A stretch of 43,673 nucleotides of DNA from Alphaproteobacteria bacterium (GTDB lineage Bacteria > Pseudomonadota > Alphaproteobacteria > RUG11792), in the NCBI GenBank assembly GCA_017481035.1, contig JAFUQI010000056.1, positions 1 through 43,673 on the forward strand. The letters run 5' to 3'. Numbering within the stretch: position 1 is the stretch's first letter; each line of letters begins with the position of its first letter. The notes below the pieces were generated by a model. The model saw only the letters and a program-made list of their open reading frames with translations. It ran no database searches and was not told the DNA's origin. A program made the position numbers and the translations under genes. This document shows, piece by piece, positions 18,698 through 43,673 of the stretch.

Positions 18698-20164
18698 TTA
18701 TCCTGCTCGCGCTGGAAGGGTTGCCACTAATCTGATCGAAGCAGTTAGTTCTTCCATTTGAAAATGAGGTCTAAGGTATATAACTGATTTATAGCTGCCT
18801 GGAGAGCCAGGTATATCATAGACATCTATACGTCCTTCGCGCAATGGATAAGCGGCTTTTATGTTTGCTGGTGCGTCATCATTTAATAACACATATGATG
18901 CTATCCATGTATTCAGATAATTTTCAACATTTTCTTTTGTTAGAAATGCTCCAATTTTATCTCTCATTATGACTTTTATATAGTGAGCAAATCTTGACGA
19001 AACAAGCATATACGACAGTCTTGATGAAATCGATGCATTTGCATTTGCGTCGTCCAAGTTATATACTTTTGGTTTTTGGGTTGTTTGCCCTCCAAAAAAT
19101 ACAGCATAGTCTGATCCTTTTCGATAACATGCGGCAATAAAACCAAGGTCGCTTAATTCTTTTTCTCTTCTGTCTGTGATTGCAACTTCTGTCGGACATT
19201 TTACAACCTTATCGCCATCAAGCGTTTTGAATATATAGGTTGGAAGTCCTTCTACCATTCCGCCACCTTCGACTCCACGTATTGCTGCGGTCCAGTTATA
19301 TTTTGCAAACGCAGATGTGATTCTTTGCCCCAATGCGTATGCTGGATTCCCCCAACAGAACTTTGATGTATCTCCAACGCCAACGTTTTCTGTAAAGTTG
19401 AATTCCGCAACAGGAAGAGTGGTTGGTCCGTAAGGCAAACGCATAAGGATTCTTGGTAACAATAGAGAGACGTATCTTGAATCTTCTGTATCACGGAATG
19501 AATTCCATTTTATATAATCTGGAGATTCGAAAATTTTAGCAAGATCCCTGGGATATGGCATATGTTCAAATGTATCAAGGTTGAAGAACAAAGGAGATAC
19601 GGCTGCTATAAAGGGTGTATGTGCCGCTGCAGCAAGCCCAGAAATATGCTCGAGAAACTGAATATCTTGTGGTTGATTTGTAAACGAATAATCTCCTATT
19701 AAACATGAATAAGGAGCTCCTCCGAATGTTCCGTATTCTTCCTCGTATACTTTTTTGAATAATTCGCTTTGATCAAATTCGATAGCTTTTGTTAAGTCAT
19801 CTCTGAGATCTTTTAATGAAGCGTTTAAAAGTCTAATTTTAAGATGAGTTCCAGTTTCAGTATTCATAACGAAATAGCGAAGCCCTCGCCAAGAGCCTTC
19901 TAACTTTTGATAATCAGGATGGTGCATGATTTCATTTATTTGGTCGCTTAAAGTTTCATCAATTTCTGCAATACGCCTAGTTAAGAACGAAATGATTCGC
20001 GATTCTCCAGGTGATTCTTTTGTATCAAGAAGCTCATTTACAAACTCGACTAACAGGTCTATGGCTGCATCTTCTTGCTCTGGAAATCGTGCCATTTTGT
20101 TTTCGTGAAGAAGGATATCTAATATTTTAGCTTCTTCTGGAATAATAATTACTTCATCTGACAT
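18698..20164 (-). CDS. tssC: Type VI secretion contractile sheath large subunit TssC
   Basis: TssC (VipB/EvpB) forms, with TssB, the contractile sheath that drives the T6SS needle. The 488-residue length is normal. Family features are LEGSWRGLRYFV (about 89-100), the segment around LLNASLKDLRDDL, GDYSF, AAAHTPFIAAVSPLFF, LPYGP, FCWGNPAYALGQRI and the C-terminal LRPHFQMEELTASIRLVA. It begins 14 bases after tssB and precedes the HtrA-like gene by 19. Other T6SS genes (tssJLM, tssE, tssK, clpV, hcp, vgrG) are not in the window and must lie elsewhere if the system works. Confidence 0.96.
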   Translation of the reverse strand: MSDEVIIIPEEAKILDILLHENKMARFPEQEDAAIDLLVEFVNELLDTKESPGESRIISFLTRRIAEIDETLSDQINEIMHHPDYQKLEGSWRGLRYFVMNTETGTHLKIRLLNASLKDLRDDLTKAIEFDQSELFKKVYEEEYGTFGGAPYSCLIGDYSFTNQPQDIQFLEHISGLAAAAHTPFIAAVSPLFFNLDTFEHMPYPRDLAKIFESPDYIKWNSFRDTEDSRYVSLLLPRILMRLPYGPTTLPVAEFNFTENVGVGDTSKFCWGNPAYALGQRITSAFAKYNWTAAIRGVEGGGMVEGLPTYIFKTLDGDKVVKCPTEVAITDRREKELSDLGFIAACYRKGSDYAVFFGGQTTQKPKVYNLDDANANASISSRLSYMLVSSRFAHYIKVIMRDKIGAFLTKENVENYLNTWIASYVLLNDDAPANIKAAYPLREGRIDVYDIPGSPGSYKSVIYLRPHFQMEELTASIRLVATLPARAG

Positions 20165-20178
20165 GTGTTATCCTCCTC

Positions 20179-20760
20179 TTAAATATTTTCGCCTTCTGTT
20201 TCTGGTTGAGTTGTTTGCTCTGTTTCTTGTTTTGTTTCTTCTTGTGAGTTAACTCGTTGAGCTATGCGTTCATCAAGTTCTGCTTTTAGCTTTTCAAGGT
20301 TTGATCTGTTTTTCATAATTTGAGTTAAAATAGATTCCAATGAGTCATTGCCATCCATTTTTGATATTAGGTTTTTTAGGTTAACTCTTTTGTTGTATAG
20401 AGCAGCAAGGTTTGGGACATTTTTAGCTAGATTTTGTGGCTCAAAATCTTCAAACTTAGAAAACCTCAATTCGATGCTGATTTCAGGGTTTTCATCTGAA
20501 ATCCTGTTTGGAACACGGAGAACAAGCCTAGGACCTATGATTCCAAAAACATCAGAAAAGTTATCTCTGTCTATCTCTACAAATTTTCGATTTTTCATTT
20601 TAGGAAGTGGGTTTTCAGGATTTCCTGATAAATCTGCCAAAACCCCAACAACAAATGGAAGTTCTTTTTTTTCAATAGCATTACCAATTTCAACATCGTA
20701 AGTTATATGCACCCTTGGTTTTCTGACTCTGTCTAGAGTATGTTGTCTGCTTTCAGCCAT
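20179..20760 (-). CDS. tssB: Type VI secretion contractile sheath small subunit TssB
   Basis: The small sheath subunit (VipA family), 193 residues. The N-terminal half has the conserved RVHITYDVEIGNAIEKKELP and ADLSGNP motifs, and the middle has KFVEIDRDNF and the LRFSKFEDFEP segment; the C-terminal 45 residues are a charged coiled coil ending in a Glu/Thr/Gln-rich tail. AGGAATGAAAG lies directly before the ATG. It is first in the operon tssB-tssC-HtrA-like; dapA lies upstream on the same strand, separated by 170 bases and a hairpin. Confidence 0.95.
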   Translation of the reverse strand: MAESRQHTLDRVRKPRVHITYDVEIGNAIEKKELPFVVGVLADLSGNPENPLPKMKNRKFVEIDRDNFSDVFGIIGPRLVLRVPNRISDENPEISIELRFSKFEDFEPQNLAKNVPNLAALYNKRVNLKNLISKMDGNDSLESILTQIMKNRSNLEKLKAELDERIAQRVNSQEETKQETEQTTQPETEGENI

Positions 20761-42503: not shown

Positions 42504-42658
42504 TAGTAGGGATATATGGTTGCTATACCGCTATTTCCGCTTGTGTGAAAACTGTTTTGTTGATAGGTTAAGTCGGTGGTATTGTTAATGACACTAGCAA
42601 ATGCATTTAAAGTATCGTATATTTATTAAAGTTTAGTTTTTTTTGTAACGTTAACAAA

Positions 42659-43448
42659 ATGAAGAAAATTATCATCGGGGGGGGCATTACTAGCAGCCAT
42701 TATCGCTAGCACTATTTCGATTAATAAACATGTGGATAAGAAAATACAGAATATTGACAAACAGTTAAAAAATGTAAAAAGCGATTTAAAATTTCAAGAA
42801 AGTTTTTTACAATGTCACTTTAAAGATTCGTACGTGTTCGAAAAAATATATTCACAAAAAAAATGGGGAACAAACAAGCAAGGCAAGCCGCATTCAGGAA
42901 ATGGCTCTGTGGTTGAAAATGCATTACCTTATATTGATTATTTGCAAAACTTTATTAATACGCATGACGTAACTAGTATATTAGATGTAGGTTGCGGAGA
43001 TTGGCAAATCATGAGTTCAATAGATATCCTGCAACATGTTGAATATACAGGAGTTGATGCGAGCAAATACGTTATCGATCAAAACAAAGAGAAATATAAT
43101 CAAAAAAACGTTAAATTTAAACATATAAGAGACCTTAATGATATAAAAAATATAAAAGGTGACTTGATTGTAATAAAAGAGGTTATGCAACATTGGGATC
43201 AGGAGCAGAGCCTGTATTTTATAAATAAAATATTGCCAAACTTTAAAAGAGCGATAATTTGTAACCGTTATTCGTATAGTAAAGAAAAGAATAATAAATC
43301 TATAAAGTTAGGTGGTTTTACTTGTATGGATCTCGGAGAATCGCCATATAATCTAAAATTTTCAAACTCATTTATCTATGAAAAAGGATTAATAAAAGGA
43401 GAATATTTACAGGTTGTTTTTTGGGAAAACCAACAACAAAACAAATAA
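42659..43448 (+). CDS. SAM-dependent methyltransferase, membrane-anchored form cut by a G8 tract
   Basis: The frame from GTG 42732 (238 residues) is a class I methyltransferase: coiled head (1-30), then SAM-binding motif I SILDVGCGDW (about 82-91), motif II VEYTGVDASKYV (about 103-114), and GDLIVIKEVMQHW (about 142-154). The true start is more likely ATG 42659: it reads MKKIIIGGG and then stops, but dropping one base in the run of eight G (42677-42684) joins it in frame to ALLAAIIASTISINKHVDK, a short hydrophobic anchor that runs straight into the known frame. With seven (or ten) Gs the full protein would be about 262 residues. As given, only a soluble form from GTG 42732 or similar is possible. 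This may be slipped-strand phase variation, decay or a sequence error. The substrate is unknown; the pattern with KEVMQHWD resembles glycan- or small-molecule-type enzymes. Confidence 0.75.
42677..42684 (+). repeat. G8 homopolymer inside the methyltransferase 5' end
   Basis: Eight G in a row in a very AT-rich region, 18 bases after ATG 42659. It sits exactly at the point where the reading frame must shift by one base to join anchor and enzyme. Confidence 0.85.
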
Positions 43449-43544: not shown

Positions 43545-43673
43545 ATGAGACAGTTGTTAGATCCCAAGTTAGATTATATCTTTAAGAACATATTTGGAGT
43601 AGAGAAGAACAAGAGGTTATTAATATCATTACTCAATGCAATACTAGACAATAATCCTAAGATAAATGAAGTA
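43545..43673 (+). CDS. Rpn / PD-(D/E)XK nuclease family protein, N-terminal part
   Basis: The open frame runs to the right edge. The 43 visible residues start MRQLLDPKLDYIFKNIFGVE and go on with NKRLLISLLNAIL, the typical beginning of the Rpn / PD-(D/E)XK transposase-like family (PF12784), often multicopy in intracellular bacteria and taking part in recombination. The nuclease residues lie outside the window. AGGAG at 43523-43527 is 17 bases before this ATG, a little far. Confidence 0.75.
   Translation, partial: MRQLLDPKLDYIFKNIFGVEKNKRLLISLLNAILDNNPKINEV

Follow-up and report, generated by a model that had tools for sequence, protein, structure and literature searches.

A G8 tract in the start region of a membrane-anchored methyltransferase gene: a likely poly-G contingency locus within a genome-wide set

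The methyltransferase locus and its orthologues

The window analysed here (the whole stretch of DNA, 43,673 nucleotides) carries near its end a methyltransferase gene whose start codon and main reading frame are separated by a homopolymer. On the plus strand, ATG 42659 is followed by codons for MKKIII and then by exactly eight G (G8, 42677-42684), a tract that starts 18 bp on from position 42659 and lies at codons 7-9. As assembled, the frame opened by this ATG (42659-42709) reads MKKIIIGGGITSSHYR and closes after 16 codons at a stop codon at 42707-42709, whereas the adjacent frame, which contains GGALLAAIIASTISINKHVDKK, is open for 253 codons up to a stop ending at 43448; whether a long protein or a 16-codon stub is encoded is thus set by the length of the tract. 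When all frames 3' of the G8 were read, no further disabling mutation of the methyltransferase gene was found across the 253 codons. The tract falls within the PhasomeIt cut-off of at least seven G within a reading frame, as given in the excerpt of PMC6321876.

The open frame begins with a membrane anchor (ALLAAIIASTISINKH, 42684-42731, plus strand), the hydrophobic core of which already starts 5' of the tract, at the III residues read in the ATG frame, and which scores 2.33 on the Kyte-Doolittle scale over 15 residues. It leads into a SAM-dependent methyltransferase of 238 amino acids, counted from an internal GTG (42732-43448, plus strand), with its catalytic domain at about 42978-43217 and a motif I glycine-rich loop reading LDVGCGDWQ. 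The enzyme scores above the Pfam gathering thresholds for Methyltransf_12 (PF08242), Methyltransf_11 (PF08241) and Methyltransf_25 (PF13649), matches a solved 'Methyltransferase type 12' (3jwi) weakly, and is by these matches and its alignment to orthologues a class I SAM-dependent methyltransferase. Among the curated NCBIfam equivalogs, none scores above its cut-off for this enzyme. The earlier note's description of ATG 42659, the G8 tract and, one frame over, an open anchor and a complete methyltransferase is therefore accurate on both sequence and Pfam evidence. The genes lptF and lptG adjoin the locus, a weak contextual pointer to a surface-glycan or lipid target.

The window enzyme is also encoded in three genomes of the same family (L005-L007), with 33-37% identity over the aligned proteins. 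All three orthologues have a hydrophobic N-terminal segment (2.1-2.5 on the same scale) followed by a YVD motif, which corresponds to HVD in the window, and no G-run of at least 6 lies near any of the three. The earlier note had suggested looking for the anchor in orthologues, and these relatives do carry it, tract-free. Because three orthologues have the anchor and no tract, the anchored product is probably ancestral and the tract a feature of the present lineage. L002, a more distant homologue, forms one domain of a larger fused protein and has no such anchor.

No obvious ribosome-binding site was found 5' of ATG 42659. The first usual start codon within the methyltransferase frame is GTG 42732, which has no visible ribosome-binding site before it and sits inside a conserved codon of the motif in the anchored form. 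These two features make it more likely that G8 simply turns the gene OFF, and a choice between OFF and ON fits the locus better than the switch between a soluble and a membrane-bound enzyme that had been proposed earlier, which is the less supported of the two. A soluble enzyme could still arise, in principle, from translation that starts at GTG 42732, and the ribosome-binding-site argument against this start is not absolute, because ATG 42659 also has no obvious site.

Poly-G tracts across the genome

We searched the whole genome, a draft of 83 contigs and 893,567 bases (0.89 Mb), for G-runs and compared the counts with Markov simulations of order 1-3 using the composition of the window. For a minimum length of 7, the genome contains 29 runs against about 2.5-8 expected; for 8, it contains 21 against 0.2-2; for 9, 12 against 0.2-0.5; and for 10, 4 against 0. 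The longest run is G13. In the window itself, three G7 words were found versus 0.21 expected. The rarity of the G8 run, as first pointed out, is therefore real as rarity by chance, but the run is not unique in the genome. With flanks read in all frames, 20 of the 21 runs of at least G8 lie in open reading frames, and 19 within about the first 85 codons. For the 19 tracts of at least G8 with a clear state, 6 are in frame (ON) and 13 out of frame (OFF), about one third ON, as three equal frames would give.

Ten of the tracts of at least G8 belong to one paralogous family (family A) and five to another (family B); the remainder fall in single genes, apart from one non-coding run (contig C35). Outside the two families, G-tracts are found in the window methyltransferase (42677-42684, plus strand, G8, OFF), in a LicD-family protein (G9, in frame) and a Methyltransf_24 protein (G9, out of frame) on contig C6, and in an autotransporter-like open reading frame on C83 with a Pfam match below cut-off. 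The two genes on C6 stand with a polysaccharide pyruvyl transferase (G7 near the start and a second break near 2346) as three poly-G genes in a row (G000:C6, L081, 2149-5812). The longest tract in the genome, the G13 at 2663-2675 of contig C45 (L034), sits in a DUF4015 glycosyl-hydrolase-like gene close to its 3' end, where a change in length would alter the C-terminal tail only. G7-G9 runs just 3' of a terminator-like stem recur at contig ends (L023, L030, L031, L039, L043), as do copies of a PDDEXK_2-type open reading frame (window 43545-43673), and the window starts with a similar run at 126-132. We rejected the idea that the G7 runs behind the PDDEXK_2 genes are part of a coding sequence, as terminator-like stems precede the runs and no long frame is present there.

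In the surface-protein-like family A (MSKI.NKYK.LLYLAIL-GGG-NIGEVYSS), the tract lies within or directly after a signal-like sequence. Copies are in frame with G9 (C4, C31) or G6 (a second copy on C31), out of frame with G8 (C17, C32, C46, C66 and C81, of which C46 and C66 share the same contig ends and could represent a single locus), and in frame with a broken tract, GTGGGAGGG (C47) or GGAGGAGGC (C1). Family B, an outer-membrane-protein-like open reading frame with its tract at NSEANGGGVELSFN, is in frame with G10 (C50, C63) and out of frame with G8 (C37) or G9 (C55, C72), and has the broken tract GGTGGGG in C11 and C27. All of these broken tracts code for the same or a similar peptide, which indicates that the glycines do not need a homopolymer.

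The three OFF copies of family B have complete open reading frames of 157-164 codons after the tract, and their mutual dN/dS of 0.13-0.40, a rough estimate with high synonymous distances and from a family other than that of the window gene, points to constraint on these outer-membrane paralogues. Family-A copies are open up to the contig limits, except for those on C60 and C15, which bear further lesions, and nearly every pair of them has a dN/dS greater than 1 (C15 versus C47: 1.44 over 275 codons), a pattern more suggestive of diversification, or of recombination into mosaics, than of neutral decay. With 53 matches across this genome (e.g. L021, L024, L173, L174), family A comprises dozens of copies or fragments, many of them at contig ends, and copies that have no start region could act as silent donors for antigenic variation. 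Elsewhere in the order, family A gave only two weak matches, both in G010.

Two of the four relatives examined (G004 and G007) have G9-G13 tracts straight after the signal peptides of other gene families (e.g. MMKKSLLLLSALCC-[G] and MKYLKFLTTSLII-[G]); some copies are in frame and others out of frame. These loci, in other genera of the family (L117-L120 in G004; L147, L148 and L150 in G007), form paralogous families with G9-G12 tracts in mixed frames. Several tracts in G010 are in frame or intergenic. G027 was set aside, as most of its long G-runs fall between genes close to contig ends or within a glycine-rich stretch of one gene, which we take to be carboxylase-like. Poly-G at the extreme ends of contigs in relatives (G023:C3:1-9, G008:C2:6-14, G014:C8:1-9) probably represents sequencing artefacts, and counts of G9 words in the relatives were discarded as a measure of phase variation because contig-end poly-G inflates them in several assemblies.

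A 5' cassette shared by three methyltransferase genes

The start region of the window gene forms part of a cassette of about 217 bp (42522-42738, plus strand) that comprises the upstream (promoter) region, the start codon, the G-tract and the membrane anchor. Two further copies occur in the genome, at G000:C29:2591-2809 (93%) and at G000:C22:7999-8220 on the minus strand (88%). Both run into different FkbM methyltransferases and not into the window's enzyme (TIGR01444, E 4e-27 and 5e-28, with a weak RfbT match for the C29 gene). An FkbM identity for the window enzyme was rejected: it matches neither Methyltransf_21 nor TIGR01444, and is of the Methyltransf_12 type; the FkbM domain is confined to the two paralogous cassette genes.

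From the ATG to the end of the anchor, the three copies show five differences outside the tract, four of which are at third positions of the anchored frame, and the tract is unlike in each (GGGGGGGG, GGGGTGGGG, GGGTGGGGGGG). In this assembly all three copies are out of frame (OFF); one has a T within the tract, and a second frameshift interrupts the C22 gene. An all-OFF set with a T-broken tract and a second frameshift also fits a declining family. Just 5' of the start codon, a T run counts eight in the window (42637-42644, plus strand) and in the C29 copy, and seven in C22; it may be another variable tract, which could tune transcription or translation if its length varied. The cassette had no match in viral contigs, and no strain variants of the locus were recovered.

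On sequence grounds, the cassette looks like a unit that combines a switch and an anchor, and it shows how the two may move jointly between enzymes. With slightly less than even confidence, we tentatively propose that it is a portable ON/OFF module, copies of which have been joined to unrelated methyltransferase domains, and that it belongs to a poly-G phasome spanning the genome, of a kind apparently not yet reported for this lineage. If so, gain of the cassette could put a surface-modifying enzyme under random switching in a reduced-genome, symbiont-like lineage.

Phase variation, its alternatives and known systems

Poly-G phase variation is well known, including from Neisseria. We consider it probable that the window gene is a poly-G contingency locus, that is, one of translational phase variation, for a membrane-anchored surface-modifying methyltransferase, and that it is now OFF. 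Slipped-strand mispairing during replication would alter the length of the G-tract at codons 7-9. At lengths of 1 modulo 3, which join the ATG to the anchored frame, ribosomes starting at ATG 42659 would make the N-terminal transmembrane anchor together with the class I methyltransferase, which would probably face the cytosol. With a tract of any other length, such as the assembled G8, they would stop after 16 codons and the enzyme would be OFF. The gene would be one of about twenty such loci, nearly all of them for predicted surface proteins or membrane-anchored enzymes, and random switching of some 20 loci would produce cell-to-cell differences in surface chemistry. The switched membrane-anchored enzymes probably modify surface glycans or lipids, a role that we infer from the functions of other switched genes (LicD, pyruvyl transferase, FkbM); the target of the window enzyme may accordingly be LPS or another surface glycan.

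In favour of a contingency locus are the excess of tracts and their clustering at start sites (21 of at least G8 versus 0.2-2, 19 within about 85 codons), the varying tract length and state of paralogues with similar flanks (G6, G8 and G9 in family A; G8, G9 and G10 in family B), and the different tracts in three of three cassette copies whose flanking code is nearly unchanged. Against it stand the OFF state of all three cassette copies, one with a second frameshift, the absence of an obvious ribosome-binding site at ATG 42659, the position of G8 near the lower limit for efficient slippage, and the dependence of the dN/dS values on high synonymous distances in families other than that of the window gene. 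The earlier note had weighed phase variation against decay and base-call error, and the former is favoured by a genome repertoire with mixed states, intact OFF paralogues, the cassette tract differences and the tract-free anchored orthologues. This support is partial: variation in tract length at the locus is read from paralogues and cassette copies of one assembly, and from it we infer switching by slippage within a living population. The feature is real and meaningful, and likely one poly-G contingency locus of a genome-wide set.

It is unlikely that the gene is instead a recent pseudogene, killed permanently by a one-base change at a fragile homopolymer, with its intact frame a sign of youth only. 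The window gene is indeed out of frame, as are both cassette paralogues, one with a second frameshift, genes are readily lost from reduced genomes, and a few family-A copies (C60, C15) bear further lesions; however, the 253 codons after the tract are free of other lesions and retain the conserved motifs, an excess of start-site tracts with about one third in frame is unlike decay, and OFF family-B copies are intact and constrained. We assign a smaller probability still to programmed ribosomal or transcriptional slippage, by which a G-run near the start would give a constant low output of anchored enzyme from unchanged DNA. G-runs can be slippery, but opposite shifts would be needed, one way in the window and C22 copies and the other way in C29, and the G8, G9 and G10 paralogues would likewise need different shifts where a programmed site should keep a fixed length; programmed frameshifting was rejected on the grounds that homologous copies would require unlike shifts. 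A sequencing or assembly error, with a real tract length that differs from the assembled one and a gene that is simply intact, is marginally less probable again. Homopolymers are error-prone, the genome is an 83-contig draft, and poly-G artefacts occur at contig ends in some relatives, yet many independent tracts of 6-13 are resolved and paralogues differ in length with both states seen, and error would neither site tracts at gene starts nor differ by gene copy.

A contingency locus of this kind has counterparts in several known systems. Campylobacter phasomes consist mostly of poly-G tracts of 9-10 in open reading frames; as described in the excerpt of PMC6321876, they resemble the present set in having many tracts of at least seven G in the open reading frames of a small AT-rich genome, often in surface-structure genes, with length setting the frame, and differ in belonging to another phylum and in peaking at G9-10 rather than G8-9. 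A switch and anchor cassette common to different enzymes is not met for Campylobacter in that excerpt. In Chlamydia, CT166 shows mixed G counts in reads (PMC4514472), and pmpG/pmp10 has frameshifted but undecayed OFF copies (PMC6740158), an argument of the same type as our family selection argument. Chlamydia shares with the present lineage a reduced genome and poly-G tracts in paralogous surface proteins, some copies being ON and others OFF (PMC6740158). The loci there are autotransporters and a few single genes, whereas anchored enzymes are included here; Chlamydia is intracellular, a lifestyle that may also apply here, and length variation is seen there in reads (CT166) and here among assembled paralogues. 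Bartonella, probably of the same class (Alphaproteobacteria), has contingency loci of both poly-G and poly-A close to the starts of genes, e.g. badE and vblA/vblB, and shares G8-11 tracts in signal-peptide lipoproteins with ON and OFF states; its repeats are mostly A, its gene sets are unlike, and switching was seen there in an evolution experiment (PMC11466379).

The genome-wide repertoire thus represents a known mechanism in a lineage apparently unreported for it; a search of the open-access literature for phase variation with Rickettsiales or Holosporales found nothing, which is weak evidence of novelty, as most subscription papers lie outside that literature. The newer elements here are the lineage and the switch-plus-anchor cassette, the latter being the most original. 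Most known cases of poly-G phase variation come from pathogens exposed to immune systems. The present genome is small and symbiont-like, and its roughly 20 similar G-runs suggest genes that are flipped on and off at random; retention of about 20 switches on surface proteins and enzymes by a 0.89-Mb genome suggests strong and changing selection on the surface. The repertoire is testable, in a lineage for which the literature searched held none. The same 0.89-Mb genome also contains the sheath genes of a type VI secretion system, tssC and tssB (TIGR03355 and TIGR03358; window 18698-20760).
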